In this document: one piece after another, positions 10,574 through 63,457 of the stretch
Position numbering within the stretch: position 1 is the first letter of the stretch
Layout: every line of letters starts with the position of its first letter
From: Dysosmobacter sp. Marseille-Q4140
GTDB taxonomy: Bacteria > Bacillota > Clostridia > Oscillospirales > Oscillospiraceae
DNA length: 64,000 bases
Assembly: GCA_018228705.1 (NCBI GenBank)
Contig: CP073694.1
Coordinates: 2,356,001 to 2,420,000, forward strand
Reading direction: 5' to 3'
The notes under the pieces: generated by a model
Databases searched by the model: none
The model's input: only the letters and a program-made list of their open reading frames with translations
What the model was told of the DNA's origin: nothing
Position numbers and translations under genes: made by a program

Positions 10574-11341
10574 TCAGTTCCGGCGAATGCCCCGGACCAC
10601 CACCGCCGGCTCTCCGGCGGCATGGGTCACGGCGGCCTCCACTCCGTAGACCGCGGCCAGGGCCTCCGGCGTCACCACGGAGGCGTCCCCGGCGGCGTGG
10701 ACGGCGCCGCCCCGGAGCAGCAAAAAGCGGTCGCAGAAGCGCAGCGCCTGGGTGAGGTCGTGGAGCACCGCCACGGCGGTGAGCCGTTCCTCCCGGCAGA
10801 TCCGGCGCACCAGATCCAGCACCTCGTACTGGTTGCGCAGGTCCAGATTGCTGGTGGGCTCGTCCAGCAGCAGGAGCTTCGGCCGCTGGGCCAGGGCCCG
10901 GCCCAGCAACACCTTCTGCCGCTCGCCGCCGGAGAGCCGGTCAAGCTCCCGGTCCGCCAGCGTCTCCAGGTCCAGGCGGCGCAGGACGGCCTCCACCGCC
11001 CGCCGGTCCTCACCGGAAACGCCCCAGCGCAGATAGGGCTTGCGGCCCAGCAGCACCGTATCGTAAACCGTCAGCGCCGCGGCGGTGTTCTCCTGGGCCA
11101 CGAAGGCCGCCTGCCGGGCCAGCGCGCCGGGGGAGAGGGCCGTGAGGTCCGTACCGTCCAGCATTGCCCGCCCGGCTCTGGGGCGCAGGATGCCGCCCAG
11201 GCATTTGAGCAGGGTGGACTTTCCGGCACCGTTGTTGCCCAGGACCGCCAGAAAGGAGCCCGGTTCCACGGAAAAAGAGATGTCCCGCAGGATCTCCCGC
11301 CCGCAGGGATAGGAGAAGGAGAGGCATTCCACATTCAGCAC
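10574..11341 (-). CDS. ABC transporter ATP-binding protein, FecE/FhuC/BtuD family
   Basis: 255 residues. It has Walker A (GNNGAGKSTL, about residues 33-42), the Q-loop, the signature RLSGGERQKV and Walker B (LLLLDEPTSNLD) with catalytic Glu, plus the H-loop in AVLHDLTQA. It energises import through the permease encoded upstream. The start is the GTG at 11341, 6 nt after GGGGGA and overlapping the permease stop by 7 nt; no ATG fits in frame. It is the last gene of the larE-to-ATPase operon, so nickel or a nickel chelate is the likeliest cargo. Siderophore or cobalamin are the alternatives for this family. Confidence 0.9.
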   Translation of the reverse strand: MLNVECLSFSYPCGREILRDISFSVEPGSFLAVLGNNGAGKSTLLKCLGGILRPRAGRAMLDGTDLTALSPGALARQAAFVAQENTAAALTVYDTVLLGRKPYLRWGVSGEDRRAVEAVLRRLDLETLADRELDRLSGGERQKVLLGRALAQRPKLLLLDEPTSNLDLRNQYEVLDLVRRICREERLTAVAVLHDLTQALRFCDRFLLLRGGAVHAAGDASVVTPEALAAVYGVEAAVTHAAGEPAVVVRGIRRN

Positions 11342-12408
11342 AGGCGGTCCCCCCTTCGAAACAGCAGATAGAGAAACATAGGCGCCCCCAAAAAGGAGGT
11401 GATGGCCCCGATGGGCAGCACCGCCGGAGACAGCAGTTCCCTGGCCGCCAGATCGCCCAGCAGCAGCAGCGCCGCGCCGCCCAGGGCGGAGGCGGGGATC
11501 AGAAAACGGTGGTCGGCGCCGGTGAAGCGGCGCAGCATGTGGGGCGCCACCAGCCCCACAAAGCTGACCACCCCCACGAAGGCCACGCTGACGGCGGCGA
11601 TGAGGGTACACAGCGCCATGCTGGCGCAGGTCAGGACGCCCACGTTGACGCCCAGGCTTCGTGCGGTGTCTCCGCCGCCGGAGAGGGCGTTGTAGTTCCA
11701 GCGGTTCCACAGGAAAAAGAGCAGGGCCGCCGCCGTGCAGGCGGCGATGAGGCCGATCTCGCTCCAGCCGGGCCGGCCCAGGTCCCCGAAGGTCCAGTAG
11801 ACCACCGTGGCTACCTGGACGTCGTCGGCAAAGTATTGCAGCAGGGTGGTGCCGCCGGTGAACAGGGAGCTCAATGCCACCCCCGCCAGGATCATGGAGG
11901 AGGGCGCGGCGCCCCGCAGCCGGGACAGTGCCAGCACGAATACCGTGGTGGCCATACCGCCTAAAAAGGCGCACACCGTCACGGCGGCGGGGGAGGAGAT
12001 GGTGACGGCGGAAGCAGCGTTGGCGGCGTTCTGGACCCCGGCGTCCAGGCCGATGATGGCCGCCGCCGCGCCGAAGGCCGCCCCCTGAGATACCCCCAGT
12101 GTGGAGGCAGAGGCCAGGGGATTGCGGAGCACGCACTGCATCACGCAGCCGGACAGGGCCAGGGCGGCGCCCACCACGGTGGCCGCCGCCGTCCGGGGCA
12201 GCCGCACCCGGAAGAGGATGGCCCGGGTCTGGTCGGTGCCCCGGCCCAGCAGGGCCTCCAGCAGATCGCCCGCCGTCAGGGCGGAGGAACCGGTGGTCAG
12301 GGAGACCAGGACCAGAGCCCCCACCAGCAGCGCCAGCACCGCCAGGGTCAGCCATCTGCGCCGGAGGAGGCGGCCGTATGCCGCCGGCATGGTCCGCTCA
12401 CGTCCCAT
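11335..12408 (-). CDS. FecCD-family ABC transporter permease
   Basis: 357 residues with about ten transmembrane segments. Family signatures are visible in LPRTAAATVVGAALALSG, ASASTLGVSQGAAFGA and FVGLVAPHMLR. It forms the membrane dimer of a BtuCD-like importer. It overlaps the binding-protein gene upstream by 11 nt and the ATPase gene by 7 nt. The same family moves ferric siderophores, haem, cobalamin and other metal chelates. Position inside a nickel-cofactor operon makes a nickel species the best guess. Confidence 0.9.
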   Translation of the reverse strand: MGRERTMPAAYGRLLRRRWLTLAVLALLVGALVLVSLTTGSSALTAGDLLEALLGRGTDQTRAILFRVRLPRTAAATVVGAALALSGCVMQCVLRNPLASASTLGVSQGAAFGAAAAIIGLDAGVQNAANAASAVTISSPAAVTVCAFLGGMATTVFVLALSRLRGAAPSSMILAGVALSSLFTGGTTLLQYFADDVQVATVVYWTFGDLGRPGWSEIGLIAACTAAALLFFLWNRWNYNALSGGGDTARSLGVNVGVLTCASMALCTLIAAVSVAFVGVVSFVGLVAPHMLRRFTGADHRFLIPASALGGAALLLLGDLAARELLSPAVLPIGAITSFLGAPMFLYLLFRRGDRLC

Positions 12409-13519
12409 GGCCGATCACCAGGGGACCAAAGCCCAGACCCTCCGCCGCCATCTCGGCGTAATAGCCCCGACCCAGCAGGAATTCCAGGATCTCGTCGGTC
12501 GTTTCCGCCATATCCACGTCAGCAAACCGCTCCGGATACAGGACGGACCCGGCGTAGTAGGCGTCGGCCAGGGCATAGCCCACGTTGGTGGAGTAGTTGT
12601 TGTAGGACACGCAGGCGTAGACCTGTCCCTGCCGCACCGCCGTCAGAGCGTCGAAGAAGCCGGGGTTGGCGTCGTATTCCCCGTTGACCAGCTCCAGGCT
12701 GCCCGGGTCCAGAAAGATCACGTCCGGGTCCCAGGTGAGGAGCTTCTCCGGATCGGCGTCGTAGTAGCCCTCCTGGTCCGCCTCGTCGGCCACGTTCCGG
12801 GCGCCGATGGCCAGGAAGGGGCCGAAGCGGGAGTAGGTGCCGGTGAAGCCGTGGGCCCCGGAGAAAGTGACGGCCCCGGCGTAGCAGGCGGGCTTGTCCG
12901 ATTCCGGAATGTCCGCCGTCCGGGCGGCCAGATCCGCCTTGCAGCCGTCGATGTAATCCAAAACCGCCTCACACCGCTCCCGGGCCCCCAGCACCTGGGC
13001 GGCCACGGTCATGGCGGTGTAGAAGCTCTCATCGATGAAGTTGATGCTCTGGGCCCGGACGGATACGCAGGGGATGCCGGTGGCGGCCTGGAGATCCTCC
13101 AGGGCCTCCTGGGTGTAGCCGGAGAGGATCACGTCCGGCTGGAGGGTGATGAGCTCCTCCACATAGGCGGTGTTGGCGGTGCCGCCGCCCTTGCCGATGG
13201 AGGGAAGGCGCTCCAGAAGGTCGTGGTAGACATAGGCGTAGTCCCGGAGGGGGGAGGTCCCGTAGGTTTTGTCGGTGTCCTCCACGCCGGCGAGGCGGTC
13301 GGTGCACTGGAGATAGCACACCATCCGCAGCGCGCCGGAGCCGGTGCACACCACCGTCTCCACGGTCTCCGGAATCTCCACGGTCCGGCAGTAGCTGTCC
13401 GTCACGGTGCGGACGGCGGTATCCGCGGCGGGATCATCACCGCCGCCAGCCCCGCCGCCGCAGGCGGTGAGGCCCGCCAGGGCCAGCAGGGTCAAAAGCA
13501 GAGAAAACAGTCGTCTCAT
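12398..13519 (-). CDS. ABC transporter substrate-binding lipoprotein, FecB/BtuF family
   Basis: 373 residues. The N-terminus is a lipoprotein signal with lipobox GLTAC (Cys20). Two Rossmann-like lobes follow, joined by a helix as in class III binding proteins. The segment DVIFLDPGSLELV and the C-terminal part YNNYSTNVGYALADAYY are characteristic. The latter is Tyr/Asn-rich and may line the ligand cleft. It is translationally coupled to the permease. The ligand is unknown; a nickel chelate is inferred from the lar genes in the same operon. Confidence 0.88.
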   Translation of the reverse strand: MRRLFSLLLTLLALAGLTACGGGAGGGDDPAADTAVRTVTDSYCRTVEIPETVETVVCTGSGALRMVCYLQCTDRLAGVEDTDKTYGTSPLRDYAYVYHDLLERLPSIGKGGGTANTAYVEELITLQPDVILSGYTQEALEDLQAATGIPCVSVRAQSINFIDESFYTAMTVAAQVLGARERCEAVLDYIDGCKADLAARTADIPESDKPACYAGAVTFSGAHGFTGTYSRFGPFLAIGARNVADEADQEGYYDADPEKLLTWDPDVIFLDPGSLELVNGEYDANPGFFDALTAVRQGQVYACVSYNNYSTNVGYALADAYYAGSVLYPERFADVDMAETTDEILEFLLGRGYYAEMAAEGLGFGPLVIGHGT

Positions 13520-13543: not shown

Positions 13544-14062
13544 TCAGCGGTCATAGGGGCGGAAGCAGTGCAGGCACACCACCTTCCCGTCCTGGAGACG
13601 GGCCATGTGCTCCGCCATGGTCTCCCCGCAGATCGCGCAGGTGCAGGTGCGGAAGAGCTGGGCCTTTTCCGGCAGGGGGACTCTGGGAGCCGTGGTGGTG
13701 AAGAGGTCCTCCAGCGGGGCCTCCAGGATCCACCGCATCCGCTCCTCCCGGGTCATGTCCGACTGATTGCGCAGGGCCACCACCCGGACGCCCTTTCCCG
13801 TGGCCCGGCTGTAAAAGGTGTAGGCGCTCTTGCCGGTGGGGGTGTAAAGGAGATTGCCCTTGCCGAAGGTGCAGCCCAGCAGCACCTGGACAGCGTCCAC
13901 CGGGCAGGCGTCGGTCTCGGCGATGCACACCAGCTCCTCGTCGGGGGAGAAGCCCCAGCCCAGCCGGTCCCGGACGTACTCGCACAGACGCACGCCCAGG
14001 GCCAGGCCCGGGCAGGTATGGCCGTGGAAGGCCGCGCACTTGTCCCAGATGGCTTTATCCAC
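13544..14062 (-). CDS. fmdE: FmdE-family protein with C-terminal treble-clef zinc finger
   Basis: 172 residues. The FmdE core carries the conserved FHGHTCPGLALG near residue 12-23 (His and Cys at the metal-binding position of the family), followed by ETDACPVDAVQVLLGCTFGKGN. The C-terminus has paired CxxC motifs (CAICGE and CLHCFR) forming an auxiliary zinc finger known from structures of this family. FmdE was named for formylmethanofuran dehydrogenase operons, but most homologues are in non-methanogens and their role is unresolved. Here it overlaps larC by 8 nt and precedes a metal-chelate importer, so a role in metal handling for the NPN cofactor is likely. No formylmethanofuran dehydrogenase genes are nearby. 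Confidence 0.85.
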   Translation of the reverse strand: MDKAIWDKCAAFHGHTCPGLALGVRLCEYVRDRLGWGFSPDEELVCIAETDACPVDAVQVLLGCTFGKGNLLYTPTGKSAYTFYSRATGKGVRVVALRNQSDMTREERMRWILEAPLEDLFTTTAPRVPLPEKAQLFRTCTCAICGETMAEHMARLQDGKVVCLHCFRPYDR

Positions 14063-15377
14063 GGGGTGCCTCCTGTTCCGCCGCGGCCTTCACCGCCGCC
14101 TCCCACACGGTCTGAAAGGGGACGCCGCAGCGCCGGGCGGCGGCTGCCGCGTCGCCGTACTCCGGCTTTTCCTTACAGATGCCGAAGCCCTCCCCCCGCT
14201 TCATGGCGATGGGGCCAAAGGCCGTCTCCACCGTGCGGCAGGAGGGGGTGAGCACATAGCGGGCGCACCGCCGGGCCCGGACCCCCAGGGTAGAGGTCTC
14301 CCGCAGCACGGCCCGGGCCAGGCGCTCCTCGTCGGCGGGACGGCACAGCACCGTCAGCGCCGCGGCGGCACGGCCCTTTTTCATGACGATGGGGGCGGTG
14401 GTTACGTCCAGGGCCCCCTGGGCCATCAGGGTCTCGCAGGCGTAGGCCAGGGCCTCCGCCGTGGAGTCGTCGATGTGGCAGACCAGCTCCGTGATCTCCT
14501 CCCGGCCCGCCTGGCCGCTCTCGCCCAGCAGGGCGCGGACGCAGTTGGCGGCGGGGAACTCCTTGCGGCCCACGCCCACGCCGGTGGCCTCCAGGGTCAT
14601 CAGGGGCTGGGGGCCGAAGGAGGCGGCAAAGTGGGCCAGCAGGGCCGCGCCGGTGGGGGTGCACAGCTCTCCCCGGATCTCGCCGCCGTAGCAGGGGACG
14701 CCCCGCAGCAGGTAGGCGGTGGCGGGGGCGGGCACCGGCATAATGCCGTGGGCGCAGCGGACCTGACCGCTGCCCACATGGACCGGGGAGGCCGTGATCC
14801 GCTCCGCGCCCAGCAGGTGCAGCGCCAGGCACACGCCGGTCACGTCCGCCACCGCGTCCAGGGCGCCCACCTCGTGGAAATGGACCTCTGTCACCGGAAC
14901 GCCGTGGGCCGCGGCCTCGGCGTCGGCGATGCGGCGGTAGACGGCTTTGGCGTTCTCCCGCACCGCCTCCGGCACCGGCAGATGGTCCAGAATGCGGTCG
15001 ATGTCCGCCGGAGCCGCGTGGTGATGGTGGCCGTGCTCATGGGAGTGCTCGTGGTCGTGGGGATGGTCGTGGTCATGGTGATGGTCGTGCTCATGGGGAT
15101 GTTCGTGGTCGTGAGGGTGCTCGTGGACCTCCGGCGCAGCGGTGCCCAGGGGCAGGTCGTGACTGACCTCCTCCTGGCCGTGGACCGTCACCTCCATCCG
15201 CGTCCCGGCGATGCCGCAGGTGACGGCAGGGACTGCCGCCACGGTCACGCCGGGCAGGAGGCCGTTCATGGTGCGCAGGAAGTCCTCCTTCTGCTGCCGG
15301 TCCAGCAGCTCATACAGGGCCGCCGTCAGCATATCGCCTGCGGCGCCCATGTTGCACTCGAGATACAGCGTTTTCAT
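14055..15377 (-). CDS. larC: nickel-pincer cofactor nickel insertase LarC
   Basis: 440 residues in one uninterrupted frame. The N-terminus ECNMGAAGDMLTAALYELL is the LarC signature. Residues 85-120 are a very His/Asp/Glu-rich loop that should bind nickel. A C-terminal domain follows with VHFHEVGALDAV and GTELCTP-like segments. LarC is a CTP-dependent cyclometallase that inserts Ni into the pyridinium dithiocarboxylic nucleotide. In Lactiplantibacillus plantarum LarC is made by a ribosomal frameshift between larC1 and larC2; here no frameshift is needed. It overlaps larB by 4 nt (ATGA) and fmdE by 8 nt. Confidence 0.93.
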   Translation of the reverse strand: MKTLYLECNMGAAGDMLTAALYELLDRQQKEDFLRTMNGLLPGVTVAAVPAVTCGIAGTRMEVTVHGQEEVSHDLPLGTAAPEVHEHPHDHEHPHEHDHHHDHDHPHDHEHSHEHGHHHHAAPADIDRILDHLPVPEAVRENAKAVYRRIADAEAAAHGVPVTEVHFHEVGALDAVADVTGVCLALHLLGAERITASPVHVGSGQVRCAHGIMPVPAPATAYLLRGVPCYGGEIRGELCTPTGAALLAHFAASFGPQPLMTLEATGVGVGRKEFPAANCVRALLGESGQAGREEITELVCHIDDSTAEALAYACETLMAQGALDVTTAPIVMKKGRAAAALTVLCRPADEERLARAVLRETSTLGVRARRCARYVLTPSCRTVETAFGPIAMKRGEGFGICKEKPEYGDAAAAARRCGVPFQTVWEAAVKAAAEQEAPRG

Positions 15378-16135
15378 TCCCGGATCCCCTCCATGAGATT
15401 GATGCGGCTGGCGAGAAATCCCGCGCCGAAGCCGTTGTCGATGTTCACCACGCTGATGCCGCTGGCGCAGGCGTTCAGCATGGACAGCAGGGCGCTGAGC
15501 CCGCCGAAGGAGGCCCCGTAGCCCACGCTGGTGGGCACGGCGATGACGGGGCAGTCCACCAGGCCCCCGACTACGCTGGCAAGGGCCCCCTCCATGCCCG
15601 CCACGGCCACCACCGCCCGGGCGCTCATCAGAGGCTCCAGGTTGGAAAGGAGCCGGTGCAGCCCCGCCACGCCCACGTCGTAGAGCCGGGTCACGGCGCT
15701 GCCCAGGGCCTCGGCGGTGAGAGCCGCCTCCTCCGCCACGGGCAGGTCGCTGGTGCCGCCGGTGGCCACCACCACGCTGCCCCGGCCCGTCACCGCTTTG
15801 GGGAAGGCCACCGCCAGGCGGGACAGGGGATCGTAGCGCAGGGGGAACCGGGCCTGGAGGATCTCCGCCGTCTCCGGGGCGATCCGGGACACCAGGACGT
15901 TTTCCGCTCCCCGGCCGCCCATGGCCTCCAGGATCCCGGCGATCTGCTCCGGCGTCTTGGACTGGCCGTAGATCACCTCCGCGGACCCCTGGCGCAGGGC
16001 GCGGTGGTGGTCCACCTTGGCGTAGCCCAGGTCCTGGAAGGGGGCCAGCTTCAGCCGCAGCAGCGCCCCCTCCGGGGTCAGTTCGCCAGCCTGGACCTGC
16101 TGCAAAATGTGCAAGATATCATTCTTTTCAGACAT
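15374..16135 (-). CDS. larB: nickel-pincer cofactor biosynthesis carboxylase/hydrolase LarB
   Basis: 253 residues. The C-terminal two-thirds is a PurE-like (AIR carboxylase) domain with VVVATGGTSDLPVAEEA and PTSVGYGASFGGLSALL. The N-terminal part carries the LarB-type YAKVDHHRALRQGSAEVIYG. LarB carboxylates nicotinic acid adenine dinucleotide and releases AMP, the first step of NPN synthesis. The ATG at 16135 is chosen because GGGAG sits 12 nt before it. A TTG at 16147 directly abuts that box and is unlikely. It lies 18 nt after larE. Confidence 0.92.
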   Translation of the reverse strand: MSEKNDILHILQQVQAGELTPEGALLRLKLAPFQDLGYAKVDHHRALRQGSAEVIYGQSKTPEQIAGILEAMGGRGAENVLVSRIAPETAEILQARFPLRYDPLSRLAVAFPKAVTGRGSVVVATGGTSDLPVAEEAALTAEALGSAVTRLYDVGVAGLHRLLSNLEPLMSARAVVAVAGMEGALASVVGGLVDCPVIAVPTSVGYGASFGGLSALLSMLNACASGISVVNIDNGFGAGFLASRINLMEGIRE

Positions 16136-16153
16136 GATATACGACAACTCCCT

Positions 16154-16909
16154 TCAATTCGACGGCGTTCGGGCCGTGAGGTCCAGATGGACGGCGGCAA
16201 ACAGCGGCGCAAGACCCGCCAGGATCTCCGCCCGCCGCTCCAGCGCCAGGGGCATCTGGGCGGCCGTGACCTGCACCAGGGCGCCGTCCCCCCGCTGCCG
16301 CAATCGGAAGTCCCGGAAGCCCAGGGCCGCCAGCACCGCCTCGCCCTGCTCCACCTTCTTCAGCGCCGCCGCCGTCAGGGGCGTGCCGGCGGGGACCCGG
16401 GTGGCGAGGCAGGCATAGGCGGGCTTGTCCCAGGTGGGGAGGCCCGCCTCCCGGCTCAGGCGCCGGACGTCGGCCTTGGTCAGCCCGCACTCCCGGAGGG
16501 GGGACCGGACTCCCAGCTCCGCCAGGGCCGCCATGCCGGGGCGGTCGCCGGCGTCGTCGGAGGCGTTGGTGCCGTCGGCCACCAGGGGAAGGCCCTCTGC
16601 CGCCGCGTGGTCCAGGATGGCCCGGAACAGGGCCCGCTTGCAGAAGTAGCACCGCCGGGGCGGGTTGGCGGCCACCTGCGGGTCCGCCAGCACGTCCGCC
16701 TCCAGCACCGTCAGGGGCAGACCGCACAGGTCCGCCAGGGTCTCGGCGTCTGCCCGCTCATGGGCGGGCTGGAAGGGTGTCTGGACAAAGCAGGCCCTCC
16801 AGCCGGCGCCGTATTTGCCCGCCGCCCAGGCCAGCAGGGCGGAGTCCACGCCGCCGGAGAGGGCCAGGAGCCCTCTGGGATGCTGCTGAAAGAAGGATGG
16901 AAGATCCAT
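16154..16909 (-). CDS. larE: ATP-dependent sacrificial sulfur transferase LarE
   Basis: 251 residues. The PP-loop SGGVDS is at 18-23. A conserved pair of cysteines sits in RRCYFCKR (87 and 90), and Cys167 lies in DKPAYACLATR, the motif that holds the sulfur-donor cysteine of L. plantarum LarE. LarE adenylates the carboxylated nucleotide and adds sulfur to give the dithiocarboxylic ligand. The ATG at 16909 has a perfect GGAGGTGA box 5 nt upstream. An earlier ATG at 16939 lies inside the leader terminator stem and is rejected. It is the first gene of the operon, read from the promoter at 17059-17087. Confidence 0.92.
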   Translation of the reverse strand: MDLPSFFQQHPRGLLALSGGVDSALLAWAAGKYGAGWRACFVQTPFQPAHERADAETLADLCGLPLTVLEADVLADPQVAANPPRRCYFCKRALFRAILDHAAAEGLPLVADGTNASDDAGDRPGMAALAELGVRSPLRECGLTKADVRRLSREAGLPTWDKPAYACLATRVPAGTPLTAAALKKVEQGEAVLAALGFRDFRLRQRGDGALVQVTAAQMPLALERRAEILAGLAPLFAAVHLDLTARTPSN

Positions 16910-17052
16910 CGCCGTCACCTCCGAAACAAAAAAGGGCATACCCCGGCCGGGGTATGCCTTCTGGCATCGCTGAACAGGCTCCGCCTCCGGCGGAGCGGAC
17001 AGAGAGGATCGGCGCCCTGGGCGCCGGGCGGGGACCTTCTGATCCCCCGTAG
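16910..17052 (-). promoter_or_regulatory. structured 5' leader of the lar operon, candidate metal- or cofactor-sensing attenuator
   Basis: From the predicted start near 17052 the transcript runs about 95 nt before a terminator (16935-16958). It can form at least two strong hairpins on the way (7 bp stems around 17010-17026 and 16979-16995) and a possible long-range GGATC/GATCC pair. The larE ribosome site lies just beyond the terminator. This layout is that of an attenuator or riboswitch. I do not recognise the conserved boxes of the NiCo class, so the class is unknown. Confidence 0.6.
16935..16958 (-). terminator. intrinsic terminator inside the lar leader
   Basis: A perfect 24 nt palindrome (12 bp arms at 16935-16946 and 16947-16958) is followed on the minus strand by six Ts (16931-16926). 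It lies between the lar promoter and the larE ribosome site, where no gene upstream needs ending, so it most likely attenuates the operon. Confidence 0.8.
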
Positions 17053-17058
17053 AAATTC

Positions 17059-17087
17059 ATTATACCGTGCCGCCCGGCCGCCGTCAA
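17059..17087 (-). promoter_or_regulatory. sigma-A promoter of the lar operon
   Basis: TTGACG at 17087-17082, a 17 nt spacer and a perfect TATAAT at 17064-17059 on the minus strand, back to back with the promoter of the divergent gene. Confidence 0.85.
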
Positions 17088-17095
17088 GGCGCACC

Positions 17096-17124
17096 TTGAC
17101 AAGGGCCGGGAAGATGGGTATTCT
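17096..17124 (+). promoter_or_regulatory. sigma-A promoter of the DUF3842-symporter-xdhC genes
   Basis: TTGACA at 17096-17101, a 17 nt spacer and TATTCT at 17119-17124. The two divergent -35 boxes are only 8 nt apart, so one regulator could control both sides. Confidence 0.75.
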
Positions 17125-17152
17125 GGGAGAAACAAAAAGAGGAGGGATGACC

Positions 17153-17614
17153 GTGGGGGAGCGGGACGTGCTGGTGGCTGTGGTGGACGGCCAGGGAGGC
17201 GGCATGGGCCGGGGACTGGTGGAGGCCGTGAAGCGGGCCTGGCCGGACCTGCGGGTCCGGGCCCTGGGCACCAACGCCCTGGCCACCGCCGCCATGCTGC
17301 GGGCCGGGGCCGACGACGGCGCCACCGGCGAGAACGCCGTGGCGGTGAATGCCGCCCGGGCGGACGTGATCCTGGGCCCCGTGGGGATCGCCATTCCCAA
17401 CGGACTGTTGGGAGAGGTGACGCCCCGGATGGCGGAGGCCGTGGGGGAGAGCGCCGCGGCGAAGATCCTGCTGCCCTCCCAGCGCTGCGGTATCCGCCTG
17501 GCGGTGGGCCCGGTCCAGCCCATGCAGTTCTATCTGGACGAGGCGGTGCGCCTGCTGGGCCAGGAGCTGGGGCGGCTGGGCCGTATCCCTCACAACGACG
17601 ACGGGAGGACCTGA
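17153..17614 (+). CDS. DUF3842 family protein
   Basis: 153 residues from the GTG at 17153, which stands 6 nt after GAGGAGGG; an ATG at 17147 touches that box. The N-terminus VLVAVVDGQGGGMGRGLVEA is a glycine-rich nucleotide-binding-like loop typical of DUF3842. Later parts include GTNALATAAMLRAGAD and ILLPSQRCGIRLAVG. The biochemical role of the family is not established. The gene is 1 nt from the NSS symporter gene and divergent from the lar operon. The fold suggests binding of a dinucleotide or nucleotide, which is inference. Confidence 0.8.
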   Translation: MGERDVLVAVVDGQGGGMGRGLVEAVKRAWPDLRVRALGTNALATAAMLRAGADDGATGENAVAVNAARADVILGPVGIAIPNGLLGEVTPRMAEAVGESAAAKILLPSQRCGIRLAVGPVQPMQFYLDEAVRLLGQELGRLGRIPHNDDGRT

Positions 17615-17615
17615 C

Positions 17616-18956
17616 ATGAAAAACCATCCGACCTCCGGCGGGCGGGACGCCTTCCGCTCCCGCTGGGGCTTCAAGCTGGCCTGCATCGGCTCCGCCGTGG
17701 GCATGGGGAACATCTGGATGTTCCCCTCCCGGGTGTCGGCCTACGGGGCGGTGTTCCTGCTGCCCTATATTCTGTTCGTGGCCCTGATCGCCTCCACCGG
17801 CGTCATCGGGGAGATGGCCTTCGGCCGGGCGGCCGGGGGCGGGCCCATCGTGGCCTTCGGCGAGGCGGCCCGGCGCCGCACCGGCAGCCGCCGCTGGGGC
17901 GAGGCCCTGGGCCTGGTGCCGGTGGCGGGCTCCCTGGCCATGGCCATCGGCTACTCCGTGGTGGTGGGCTGGCTGCTGAAATACGCCGCCGACGCCCTGA
18001 CCGGCGCCTGGCTGGAAAACCGGGGCGTGGAGGCCTTCGACGCGGCCTTCTCCTCCGCCGCCTCCGCCTGGGGCAACAACCTCTGGCAGACCGCGGCGGT
18101 GGTGATCGCCATGGCCATCATGGCCCTGGGCATCGGCGGGGGCATCGAAAAGGCCAATAAGGTGATGATGCCCCTGTTCTTCTGCCTCTTCCTGGGCCTG
18201 GCGGTGTACATCTCCACCCTGCCCGGCGCCGGGGCGGGCTACCGCTATATGTTCCTCATGGACCCGGCGGGGCTGCTGGACCCCATGGTGTGGGTCTATG
18301 CCCTGGGCCAGGCCTTTTTCTCGCTGTCCGTGGCTGGCAACGGCACGCTGATCTACGGATCGTATCTGTCCCGGGAGGCGGACGTGCCCGCCTCCGCCCG
18401 GACCGTGGCCCTGTTTGACACCCTGGCCGCCATGCTGGCGGCGCTGGTCATCATCCCCGCCATGGCTACCGCCGGGGAGACCCTCAGCCGCAGCGGCCCG
18501 GGCCTCCTGTTCATCTTCCTGCCCAACCTCTTCCGGGAGATGCCCGGCGGGCCGGTCATCATGGCGGTATTTTTCGTGGCGGCCCTCTTTGCCGGTATGA
18601 CCTCCCTCATCAACCTCTTCGAGGCCCCCATCGCCACGGTCCAGGAGAAGTTTCGCCTGAGCCGCCTGGCCGCCGTGGGCGCGGTGGGTGCCGTGGGCCT
18701 CGCGGCCAGCCTGGCCATCCAGGGGATCGTGTCCCCGTGGATGGACGTGTGCTCCATCTACGCCTGCCCCGTGGGGGCATTACTGGCGGGCGTGTTCTTC
18801 TTCTGGGTCTGGGGGAAGGCGGACTGCCTGTCCCAGGTGAACCTGGCCCGTCGTAAGCCCCTGGGAAGCTGGTTCTACCCCCTGGCAAAATACGCATTCT
18901 GCGGCGTGACGGTGATCGTTCTGGTCATGGGCGCCATCAAGGGAGGCATTGGCTGA
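17616..18956 (+). CDS. sodium-dependent transporter of the NSS (SNF) family
   Basis: 446 residues with about eleven transmembrane segments, as in bacterial LeuT-fold NSS members. The N-terminal signature GSAVGMGNIWMFP contains the sodium-site and unwound TM1 residues. SLINLFEAPIATVQEKF in TM8 to the following loop is also conserved. It imports an amino acid or related amine with Na+. The start is one base after the preceding stop. Which substrate it takes cannot be told. It sits between DUF3842 and XdhC genes. Confidence 0.9.
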   Translation: MKNHPTSGGRDAFRSRWGFKLACIGSAVGMGNIWMFPSRVSAYGAVFLLPYILFVALIASTGVIGEMAFGRAAGGGPIVAFGEAARRRTGSRRWGEALGLVPVAGSLAMAIGYSVVVGWLLKYAADALTGAWLENRGVEAFDAAFSSAASAWGNNLWQTAAVVIAMAIMALGIGGGIEKANKVMMPLFFCLFLGLAVYISTLPGAGAGYRYMFLMDPAGLLDPMVWVYALGQAFFSLSVAGNGTLIYGSYLSREADVPASARTVALFDTLAAMLAALVIIPAMATAGETLSRSGPGLLFIFLPNLFREMPGGPVIMAVFFVAALFAGMTSLINLFEAPIATVQEKFRLSRLAAVGAVGAVGLAASLAIQGIVSPWMDVCSIYACPVGALLAGVFFFWVWGKADCLSQVNLARRKPLGSWFYPLAKYAFCGVTVIVLVMGAIKGGIG

Positions 18957-18957
18957 G

Positions 18958-19962
18958 ATGCGGGAATTTTTCAGAGAGATCCTTCACGCTCTGGAGGCTG
19001 GGCGGCCGGTGGAGCTGGTCAGCGTGGTCCGCGCCAGCGGCTCCACCCCCCGGGGCGCCGGGGCCATGATGGCCGTGTTCCCCGATGGCCGCGCCGTCGG
19101 TACCGTGGGCGGCGGCAGCGCTGAGTTCGAGTCTCAGAAACATGCCGCGGCCCTGCTGAAAACCGGCGGGGAGGACCTGTGCCGCTTCCGCTTCATCCAG
19201 GGCGAGGCCGCCAGTCTCGGCATGGTCTGCGGCGGCGATGTGGAGGTCCAGTTCCAGTATCTGTCCCCGGCGGACGAGGCCGTCCTCACCGTCCTGCGGG
19301 AGATGAAGGAGGCCTGCGCCCACAGTGCGGACCTGTGGCTGGTGCGGCGGATCGAGGACGGCCGCGTCACCGCCATGGGCACCGCAGGGCGGGATGCGGT
19401 ACGCCATCTGGAGGCCCCGCCGGAGAATTTGCCGGACCTGCTGGGTCCCCGGGCGGTCTATGACGGGCAGTGGTTCGCGGTGCCGGTGGTGAAGGCCGGA
19501 CGGACCTATATCTTCGGCGGCGGCCATGTGTCCCAGGCCCTGGTGCCGGTGCTGGCGGGGCTGGACTTCCGCCCGGTGGTGTACGACGACCGGCCGGAGT
19601 TTGCCGACCCGGCCCTGTTTCCCGGCGCGGAGCAGACCCTCTGCGGCAGCTTCCTGGAGTTGTCCCGGCACGTCACGGTGACGCCGGACGACTGCGTGGT
19701 CATCATGACCCGGGGTCACCAGGCGGACTACGAGGTGCTCACTCAGGTCCTGCGCAGCGGCGCCCGGTACATCGGGTGCATCGGCTCCCGGAAGAAGCTG
19801 GCACTTTGCCGGGACAAGCTGCTCGCCGCCGGCTTTACCGAGGCGGAATACGCCTGCGTCCACGCCCCCATCGGCCTTGCCATCGGGGCGGAGACCCCGG
19901 CGGAGATCGCCATTTCCGTGGCGGCGGAGATGATCGCCGTCCGGGCGGGCGTGAAGCCCTGA
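18958..19962 (+). CDS. XdhC/CoxI family protein (molybdenum-enzyme maturation factor type)
   Basis: 334 residues. The N-terminal XdhC/CoxI domain has LVSVVRASGSTPRGAGAMM and GTVGGGSAEFE; the C-terminal Rossmann domain has YIFGGGHVSQALVPV. XdhC proteins bind molybdenum cofactor, help its sulfuration and insert it into hydroxylases. The start is the ATG at 18958, one base after the symporter stop and 11 nt from GGGAGG. A TTG at 18949 is too close to that box. No molybdenum hydroxylase lies in the window. Some lone homologues serve selenium-dependent hydroxylases, which cannot be judged here. Confidence 0.88.
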   Translation: MREFFREILHALEAGRPVELVSVVRASGSTPRGAGAMMAVFPDGRAVGTVGGGSAEFESQKHAAALLKTGGEDLCRFRFIQGEAASLGMVCGGDVEVQFQYLSPADEAVLTVLREMKEACAHSADLWLVRRIEDGRVTAMGTAGRDAVRHLEAPPENLPDLLGPRAVYDGQWFAVPVVKAGRTYIFGGGHVSQALVPVLAGLDFRPVVYDDRPEFADPALFPGAEQTLCGSFLELSRHVTVTPDDCVVIMTRGHQADYEVLTQVLRSGARYIGCIGSRKKLALCRDKLLAAGFTEAEYACVHAPIGLAIGAETPAEIAISVAAEMIAVRAGVKP

Positions 19963-61948: not shown

Positions 61949-62020
61949 GAAAGATCCCCAGACAGTGTGTCCGCCTCCCGCGCCAGTCCCACGAGGGGCC
62001 GGAGGCGCCGGAGAAGGCGC

Positions 62021-63457
62021 TCAGAACTTCAGCTTCCAGACCACCTCGCCGGTGGTCAGGGTGTCCCCGCTGCGCAGGGCGCAGGGCATGGAGATGGCCG
62101 TGCCGTTGACCCGGGTGCCGTTCTGGGACCCCAGGTCCTCCAGGTACACGGTGTCCTCCGCCAGGAACACCCGGGCGTGCCGCCGGGAGACGGAGGGGTC
62201 GTCAAAGACGATGTCGCAGGTGCCGTCCCGGCCCACGGTCAGCTCCCGGACCAGGGTGTATTCCGGGCTGTCCCCGGCCAGGGTGCCGCAGACCGTCTCC
62301 ACCCGCAGGAAGATCCCCGCCGCCTCCGGAGCCGGAGGCGCGGCCGGGGCCGCCGGGGCGGCGGGCTGTTTCTTTTTCCGAAGCAGCACCGCGGCCAGGG
62401 CCGCCGCCAGCACTGCGGCTCCCCCGATGATCCACACCAGGGGCGGCACGGCGGGGCCGCCGTCCGGCTCCTCCGCCGGGGCGGCCTGGGCCGCCGCGCC
62501 GGTGTTCCCGGAGGGCGGCAGCTGGACCGGCGGCTCCGCCTGGCCGTCCGCCGTCTCCGCCTGCTCCGGCAGGTCCACGGTGCTCTCCGCCCGGCACAGC
62601 AGCTCGCCGCCGGAGGCGAAGGTGACGGTGAGGGGCTGGTCCGCGCCGGAGGCGGTGCAGCCGGTCAGGTCGAAGCCGGTGACCAGCATGGCCCCGTTGA
62701 GGGCGGCCAGCTGCTCCGCGGCCTCGGCCGCGGCGGCGGGATCCGCCGCCGCGCAGCTGGTGCCGCCGGAGGCCTCCGCCAGCAGGCCCAGGGACTCGAT
62801 GGCCCCGCTGTCTCCGCCCACGCCCACGGCGTGGAGCATCACGTCCGAGCCGCTCAGCCGCTCCAGCAGGTCCTCGTGGGAGACGCCGCCCGCCGGGTCG
62901 TACTGGACGGCGTCGGACAGCACCACCATGCACCGCAGCTCACTGCCCTCCCGGGGGATGGCCTCGAAGGCGTCCAGAGCCTGGTCGATGCAGCTGTGGA
63001 GGCGGGTGACGTCCTCGTCAAAGGGCAGGGCCTCCATGGCCTCCGCCAGGTCCTCCGCCGGGATCTCCTCCGCCGACAGGGAGAAGGCGTCGCCGAAGGT
63101 GGCCAGGAGGTAGCGGGTGTGCTCGCCCCCCTGGGCGGCCAGGGCCCCGGCGTAGGCCGCCAGCTCCTCCCGGAAAGGCGGCATGGAGGTGGAGTTGTCC
63201 ACCAGCAGCAGATAGGTCACGGGGGATCCGGCCTGGCGCACCGTCTCCAGGGCGTGGGCGGCGGAGAAGGTCTGGCCGCCGATCCCGGCCCGGGCCTGGG
63301 TGACGGGCCGGTCGGTCTCCGACAGCTCCACGTAGGTATACAGGGTGCTGCCCTGCACGAAGGCCCGGACGATCTCCGCGCCCTCCGCCGCCAGGGCGTT
63401 TACGCACAGCAGACCCGCCGCGGCGCAGGCCGCCAGGGCCCCAAGCAGTCGTCTCAT
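62021..63457 (-). CDS. membrane protein with von Willebrand A domain and C-terminal FHA domain
   Basis: 478 residues. A signal peptide (1-25) is followed by a vWA domain (about 80-260) with the MIDAS motif LLLVDNSTSMPP (DxSxS). A Pro/Ala-rich stretch precedes one membrane segment (about 340-362). The cytoplasmic end (about 380-478) is an FHA domain with VGRDGTCDIVFDDPSVSRRHA and GSQNGTRVNG. FHA domains bind phosphothreonine, so it may report phosphorylation to an outer vWA part. The ATG at 63457 has GGAGG 7 nt upstream; an ATG at 63463 touches that box. Confidence 0.87.
   Translation of the reverse strand: MRRLLGALAACAAAGLLCVNALAAEGAEIVRAFVQGSTLYTYVELSETDRPVTQARAGIGGQTFSAAHALETVRQAGSPVTYLLLVDNSTSMPPFREELAAYAGALAAQGGEHTRYLLATFGDAFSLSAEEIPAEDLAEAMEALPFDEDVTRLHSCIDQALDAFEAIPREGSELRCMVVLSDAVQYDPAGGVSHEDLLERLSGSDVMLHAVGVGGDSGAIESLGLLAEASGGTSCAAADPAAAAEAAEQLAALNGAMLVTGFDLTGCTASGADQPLTVTFASGGELLCRAESTVDLPEQAETADGQAEPPVQLPPSGNTGAAAQAAPAEEPDGGPAVPPLVWIIGGAAVLAAALAAVLLRKKKQPAAPAAPAAPPAPEAAGIFLRVETVCGTLAGDSPEYTLVRELTVGRDGTCDIVFDDPSVSRRHARVFLAEDTVYLEDLGSQNGTRVNGTAISMPCALRSGDTLTTGEVVWKLKF

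Follow-up and report, generated by a model that had tools for sequence, protein, structure and literature searches.

A putative transcription attenuator before the lar operon of Dysosmobacter sp. Marseille-Q4140, apparently belonging to a leader-RNA family that also precedes transporter operons

We found that the lar operon of Dysosmobacter sp. Marseille-Q4140 is preceded by a leader that we predict, with a probability of about 0.85, to be a transcription attenuator in which an antiterminator hairpin (P2) and an intrinsic terminator pair in mutually exclusive ways. Judged by sequence comparison, it belongs to a family of leader RNAs that display tandem (N)NGAA hairpins, a variable spacer and a P2 sharing an arm with the terminator. 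The window, i.e., the whole stretch of DNA analyzed, spans 64,000 nt, and the lar promoter, leader, terminator and larE all lie on its minus strand (Table 1).

Table 1. Positions of the promoter, leader elements and genes of the lar region in the window
Feature	Position	Strand	Basis
Sigma-70-type lar promoter, TTGACG-17-TATAAT (17-nt spacer)	17059..17087	-	11/12 consensus letters
Promoter box TTGACG	17087-17082	-	
Promoter box TATAAT	17064-17059	-	
Expected lar transcript start	near 17052	-	
P1a hairpin, GGGGAUC-AGAA-GGUCCCC, conserved AGAA loop	17030..17047	-	folding, loop pattern, R1 match
P1b hairpin, CGGCGCC-CAG-GGCGCCG, tandem partner of P1a	17010..17026	-	folding, R1 match
Third hairpin, GCUCCGCC-GGA-GGCGGAGC	16978..16996	-	folding, comparison with relatives
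P2 putative antiterminator hairpin, AUGCC-AGAA-GGCAU	16954..16967	-	loop pattern, shuffles, folding
Intrinsic terminator with T-run	16928..16958	-	10-bp stem, GGCC loop
larE	16154..16909	-	TIGR00268; ATG 16909 behind ribosome-binding site GGAGG
larB	15374..16147	-	NF033503, 1.8e-83
larC (LarC1+LarC2)	14055..15377	-	TIGR00299, NF052512
FmdE-like protein with zinc finger	13544..14062	-	PF02663, PF01258
Peripla_BP_2 substrate-binding protein of FecCD-type ABC transporter	12398..13519	-	family search
FecCD permease	11335..12408	-	PF01032
DUF3842 protein (PF12953), divergent to lar	17147..17614	+	2.1e-47

The succession of a promoter, a structured leader of about 95 nt, a terminator and the larE ribosome site, which had been proposed in an earlier sequence-only reading of this DNA, is borne out by the coordinates and by consensus scoring; promoter-like sites occur at 2 per 10 kb against a shuffle mean of 0.8. 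That reading had further described a perfect 12 bp terminator: at the DNA level, 24 nt do form a perfect 12+12 palindrome, but the RNA stem comprises 10 bp with a GGCC loop, and the terminator (16958-16935) has a tail of C and six T (16933-16928). The loops of P1a and P2, two hairpins that the sequence-only reading had not picked out, are identical in this leader (AGAA, closed by C-G), P1b has a degenerate 3-nt CAG loop, and the third hairpin occupies the place at which some relatives (e.g., L001 and L112) show a GAA-loop hairpin next to P2. Folding of the leader together with the terminator was equaled in 1 of 200 shuffles (z -3.1) and is less remarkable when the terminator is left off (z -1.6, with 15 of 200 shuffles as good), and at least two GAA-loop hairpins arose in only 1 of 3000 dinucleotide shuffles of the 143-nt window leader. 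The operon itself runs in the order larE, larB, larC, FmdE-like gene, Peripla_BP_2 gene and FecCD permease gene and, as had been claimed, has no gene upstream of it, its neighbor being the divergent DUF3842 gene. An inverted repeat (GTCAAGG-TGCG-CCTTGAC, 17083-17100) overlaps the -35 boxes of both divergent promoters; it was set aside, as by eye it is not seen in the nearest relative, L001. A gene for an XdhC-family protein (18949-19962, +), whose NF045664 match lies below the cut-off of that model, is found close to the operon. The available text of PMC9283937 places LarB, LarE and LarC in the NPN pathway, with NaAD, P2CMN and P2TMN, and describes a [4Fe-4S] type of LarE with a CXXC...C arrangement, which is also the arrangement in the window LarE, instead of a single sacrificial cysteine.

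A terminator thus stands between the promoter and the first gene together with a mutually exclusive antiterminator, the arrangement that characterizes an attenuator: the terminator begins with the 3′ arm of P2, and because the two share nucleotides they are mutually exclusive. We folded growing transcripts of eight leaders, one of which (L106) has no automatically called P2, and in 7 of 7 P2 had formed by the point at which its own end was reached and was gone once the terminator was complete; for the window leader, the printed structure has the terminator without its outermost pair. Since the terminator replaces P2 in these foldings, P2 would be an antiterminator that needs help, and since P1a and P1b carry the loops of P2, a single factor may read both. 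In five leaders of genes for ECF transporter S components (L201, L203 and L207-L209), the terminator apparently uses the 5′ arm of P2, as judged by eye, and the pairings would still be exclusive. In the mechanism that we propose, RNA polymerase would make P1a and P1b first and P2 next; if unaided, the longer terminator would displace P2 and transcription would end before larE, so that the default state would be OFF. A factor reading the conserved (N)NGAA loops would hold P2, presumably stabilizing it by binding, and the polymerase would pass, with nickel or NPN status as the proposed signal.

We defined the hairpins of this family by an (N)NGAA loop closed by C-G, those with stems of at least 4 being met overall at 0.21 per kb of strand. 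A first set of 80 LarE-relative loci supplied 42 upstream regions, 36 of which were hairpin-tested alongside the window, and 11 of these 36 have at least one such hairpin; among 30 further larE loci drawn from 200 genomes, 11 have at least two, with 2 of these repeating earlier loci. Across 111 distinct larE upstream regions, at least two hairpins are present in 25 (20 rounds of dinucleotide shuffling: mean 0.15, maximum 2) and a terminator-overlapping P2 in 21 (mean 0.15, maximum 1), with fewer than two hairpins in the remaining 86. The relatives share the layout of a promoter, P1a and P1b near the start, a spacer, P2, the terminator and a ribosome-binding site, the P1-to-P2 spacer being mostly 40-90 nt and reaching about 280 in L156. 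Their loops include AGAA, AGGAA, ANGAA, UGAA and CGAA, as well as ACAA, CAGA, AAGC and AUAA, and their stem letters are free to differ between species with the pairing kept. Comparison of the larE leaders of relatives, a check that had been suggested for this leader, shows covarying stems: in a first alignment 94% of 96 cells are paired, with 24 both-side changes against 8 in shuffles, and in a second alignment 95% of 381 cells are paired, with 129 against 43. Sliding the pairing partner abolishes the signal, and on a weaker measure in the second alignment, one of five, both-side-changed pairs number 11 against 9.4 and are equaled in 42 of 500 shuffles. Because the aligned rows were picked for having hairpins, which overstates covariation, the shuffle counts and the model finds given below are the better evidence. 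The larE leaders of L115 and L116, from DUF3842-bearing genomes, show a plain GGTACGCC terminator and no (N)NGAA hairpins by the hairpin filter; they are possibly a divergent form of the family.

A covariance model (R1) built from 8 tandem-hairpin sequences, with the window left out, recovers the window leader at 17047-17010 with 22.5 bits when 62 sources totaling 533 kb are searched (E 0.047). It also finds the larE leaders of L010, L023, L009, L025, L132 and L007, none of which was in training and all of which had been spotted by eye before the search. L023 derives from Anaerotruncus sp. G3, a culturable relative. Of the best 15 R1 matches in 400 genomes, 12 are before larE, 2 before an ECF-S gene and 1 is a chance match; genomes used in training account for 7 of the 15, and of the 8 from elsewhere 7 are larE leaders. 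Several leaders (L001, L114, L132 and L124) have a second R1 match, i.e., a doubled motif. A further model (R2) gave 12 matches, 7 of them before lar or ECF-S genes (2 of these 7 in training) and 5 chance-like. These genome searches, in a sample with many MAGs, scored 17 first-look candidates per genome, so absences in them mean little. Another R1 match in the window (61984-62021, +; 19.9 bits) was set aside as chance, as it sits, in antisense orientation, between two reading frames of the minus strand and has a different fold. The claim of conditional termination is well supported, given that the same arrangement of antiterminator and terminator, with stems that covary, is found again in relatives and before other operons.

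These other operons were found through a P2-like pattern, which occurs at 19 places in 19 of 200 genomes; among the 19 places, the full architecture is present at L094 and L106, besides the larE leader of L004, and a partial one at L103. The leaders of L094, L106 and L103 all precede members of one gene family, the ECF transporter S component (PF12822), and the models add further ECF-S leaders at L172, L175, L177 and L179. Lower R1 matches precede an SBP-FecCD-ATPase-larE-larB-larC operon (L166/L319), a FecCD permease gene (L171), two methyltransferase genes with an ABC transporter (L161/L316) and two genes of unclear role (L163 and L170), and an R2 match precedes a methyltransferase gene with an ABC transporter (L307); from their translations, we take the transporters of L161/L316 and L307 to be of the Nik/Opp type. 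The remaining loci among the 30 with R1 matches in 400 genomes show no such arrangement. At L304, DUF3842 and a single hairpin without a terminator precede larE and transporter genes that, from their translations, are presumably CbiM/Q/O-like. The SAM methyltransferase genes between the leader and the ABC transporter (L316 261-1754, +, two genes; L307 5108-5842, +) could possibly serve nickel-chelator chemistry. As the leader precedes lar, FecCD-type and Nik/Opp-type ABC transporter genes and the ECF-S gene, the genes bearing it have a nickel/NPN theme, which suggests that they form a nickel/NPN regulon. The sequence-only reading had offered a new RNA sensing nickel, NPN or nicotinate nucleotides; the carrier genes support a nickel or NPN theme, and nothing points specifically to nicotinate nucleotides. 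Sensing of NaAD or niacin, by analogy with the substrate of LarB, was likewise dropped, no gene of the regulon pointing there specifically.

A P-loop kinase gene, a class that we presume from its translations, is found near the ECF-S gene in 19 of 30 ECF-S loci. In L179, L177 and L103, the kinase gene behind ECF-S encodes an uncharacterized domain of about 190 aa fused to the P-loop kinase-like domain, and this domain, tested in L179 and L103, matches no Pfam family over its cut-off. The ECF-S gene adjoins larC in G094 and a LarC C-terminal domain in G191. In genomes without a LarE match, a lone LarC C-terminal (LarC2-like) domain (L315 4413-4847, -) lies directly beside ECF-S and DUF3842, and a LarA-like gene (L311 3827-4603, -) directly beside ECF-S. 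LarE and ECF-S almost exclude each other: of 200 genomes, 97 encode LarE, 74 encode ECF-S and 9 encode the two together (Fisher p 7e-16, without correction for kinship). What this vitamin-type transporter brings in may be the cofactor or one of its building blocks, and ECF-S with the kinase is a possible salvage route in genomes lacking NPN synthesis, in which the kinase would rephosphorylate the imported riboside. LarA (Lar_N, E <1e-7) is found in 25 of 65 ECF-S-only genomes and in 41 of 97 LarE-positive ones, against 7 of 38 genomes that have neither; this mildly supports such salvage, kinship again being uncorrected. If salvage imported a metal-free precursor, LarC would be expected to be retained; that all ECF-S genomes keep it was rejected, since among 43 close-ECF-S genomes 7 have LarC and one further is a weak case, versus 3 of 37 with neither. 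We tentatively sketch, at odds clearly below even, an NPN regulon in which either DUF3842 is a cofactor-sensing antiterminator of a new class or the hairpins bind NPN, and in which the ON state means synthesis or salvage: lar with nickel uptake would be switched on or, in genomes without LarE, NPN salvage by ECF-S and the P-loop kinase.

A protein factor fits the switch at least as well as direct RNA sensing and is the more likely of the two, and DUF3842, a candidate trans-acting factor or NPN-pathway protein, is the best candidate for it. We propose, with somewhat less than even confidence, that it is an RNA-binding antiterminator, a Rossmann-like protein that would sense nickel or NPN and hold P1 and P2. 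DUF3842 is encoded in 40 of 45 motif genomes, 6 of 20 LarE-positive genomes without the motif before larE and 1 of 15 with neither LarE nor ECF-S (a 35-aa fragment), the motif being judged by model or eye and kinship uncorrected; the 45 were chosen by R1, R2 or eye and include G009 (L020), G071 (L184) and G068 (L185), which fail the automatic filter, and the 5 lacking DUF3842 include G128, a 3.3-Mb assembly. With motif status called automatically (two hairpins, or P2 with a terminator) or from at least 25 R1 bits, DUF3842 accompanies 23 of 27 LarE rows with the motif and 7 of 38 without (65 rows in all); by the automatic filter alone, it accompanies 8 of 8 ECF-S genomes with the motif and 6 of 18 without (26 genomes of known DUF3842 status; p 0.002, kinship not corrected), leaving 7 LarE and 6 ECF-S rows with DUF3842 and no automatic motif. 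Among 18 further LarE-positive genomes, DUF3842 and the motif each occur in one, the same genome (G074). Of the six LarE misfits, one (G160) carries the motif ahead of an operon of the methyltransferase/Nik type. Placed on the LarE tree, motif and DUF3842 are strongly associated (Fisher p 1.3e-7), but the tree yields only 1-5 independent pairs, which do not suffice for a sign test. The gene adjoins larE in 8 of 124 LarE loci (two pairs being duplicates), ECF-S in 10 of 39 loci (some duplicate), a larB operon (L174) and the SBP-FecCD-lar operon (L166/L319). Around DUF3842, no R2 match up to E 3 was found in G011, G116, G155, G076, G165 and G016, and weak ones (14.6 and 13.9 bits) were found in G191. 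Invariant residues in 27 aligned sequences (D14, GTN41-43, ATGE59-62, GE89-90 and C114, the last a cysteine) speak for this role, but the predicted fold gives generic Rossmann-like matches with nothing RNA-specific, and DUF3842 could be an NPN-pathway enzyme. It is possible, if rather unlikely, that the tandem GAA loops instead bind nickel, NPN or a precursor directly, by analogy with the loop-loop interface of the guanidine-II riboswitch. The conserved part, two short hairpins with C-loop-G and a variable linker, would suit such a riboswitch, as would the occasional doubling of the motif and the metabolic coherence of the regulon. Against it stand the loops, which are variable and 4-5 nt long and beyond which we saw no conserved nucleotide, so that little is left to form a specific pocket, and the direction of control: by stabilizing the antiterminator, a ligand would activate uptake and synthesis, opposite to normal feedback. 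The Rfam searches, covering the window and 13 further distinct leader loci, also set it apart from guanidine-II: at the gathering threshold there was no match in the window, in agreement with the earlier remark that NiCo riboswitch boxes are not apparent, or in 9 leader loci; at E<=10, the 401 bases around the window leader gave 3 matches far below thresholds (human lncRNA and viral families); and at E<=1, 9 loci (5 repeating earlier leaders) gave 4 sub-threshold matches, none at the leader's own strand and place.

Antitermination by an ANTAR protein of the EutV/NasR/AmiR type would have the same layout, two hairpins of which the later overlaps the terminator (PMC3369931, available text), and ANTAR genes are present in 9 of the 11 genomes examined; we nevertheless regard it as very improbable. 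The ANTAR targets described in the available text of PMC3369931 have loops of six nucleotides, the first being A and the fourth G, on 3-bp stems, and this hexaloop is absent here, the loops being AGAA, AGGAA, ANGAA and the like. Two genomes with the leader, G005 and G010, gave no match in the ANTAR search. Among its 12 matches, 8 genes were inspected; the neighbor is a glutamine-synthetase-like gene for 7 of them and a glutamate-synthase-like gene for the eighth, and from the translations we take these neighbors to be GlnA and GltB. That the leader is an ordinary one, with hairpins devoid of regulatory meaning, or acts through a leader peptide, is improbable as well: GC-rich DNA folds easily and the z-score without the terminator is modest, but the loop enrichment, the exclusive pairing and the recurrence at unlinked operons speak against chance folding, and by eye no short ORF is seen behind a ribosome site in the window leader.

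We found no description of this leader family in Rfam or, among the records listed, in the literature on larE, nickel and NPN riboswitches and candidate structured RNAs, and our literature search turned up no report of RNA-level control of nickel-pincer cofactor genes, no mention of DUF3842 and no report of salvage of the organometallic nickel cofactor (NPN). In the main text of a microbiome RNA survey (PMC8040213), a word search found none of the terms nickel, larE, ECF transporter and DUF3842, and the supplements of this survey may hold an unnamed entry. Attenuation by tandem hairpins is already known as a kind of control, and more is possibly new if the sensor is new. By having this leader in common, the genes are marked as one regulon, and three unassigned proteins (DUF3842, the ECF-S transporter and the kinase) acquire roles that can be tested; confirmation would bring either a new riboswitch class or a new family of RNA-binding antiterminators, together with a way of salvaging an organometallic nickel cofactor.

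Among known systems, the leader resembles the targets of the ANTAR antiterminators EutV, NasR and AmiR in its tandem conserved-loop hairpins, the downstream one of which excludes a terminator, and differs from them in its 4-5-nt (N)NGAA loops and in stems longer than the 3 bp of ANTAR (PMC3369931, available text). Unlike in the ANTAR systems, the tandem pair here lies well upstream of P2, and the ANTAR genes inspected go with nitrogen genes. With the guanidine-II (mini-ykkC) riboswitch, it shares two short stem loops of like sequence (available text of PMC5486947). It departs from guanidine-II in matching no Rfam family and in overlapping an intrinsic terminator. The loop letters of guanidine-II also differ from those of this leader. 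The NiCo riboswitch regulates nickel- and cobalt-related genes, and the leader is like it in preceding nickel-related genes and unlike it in the absence of an Rfam match in the window and the 13 further leader loci. NikR-type repression places nickel uptake genes under nickel control through a DNA operator; the leader differs in being a predicted attenuator at the RNA level and is alike in standing before probable nickel uptake genes.
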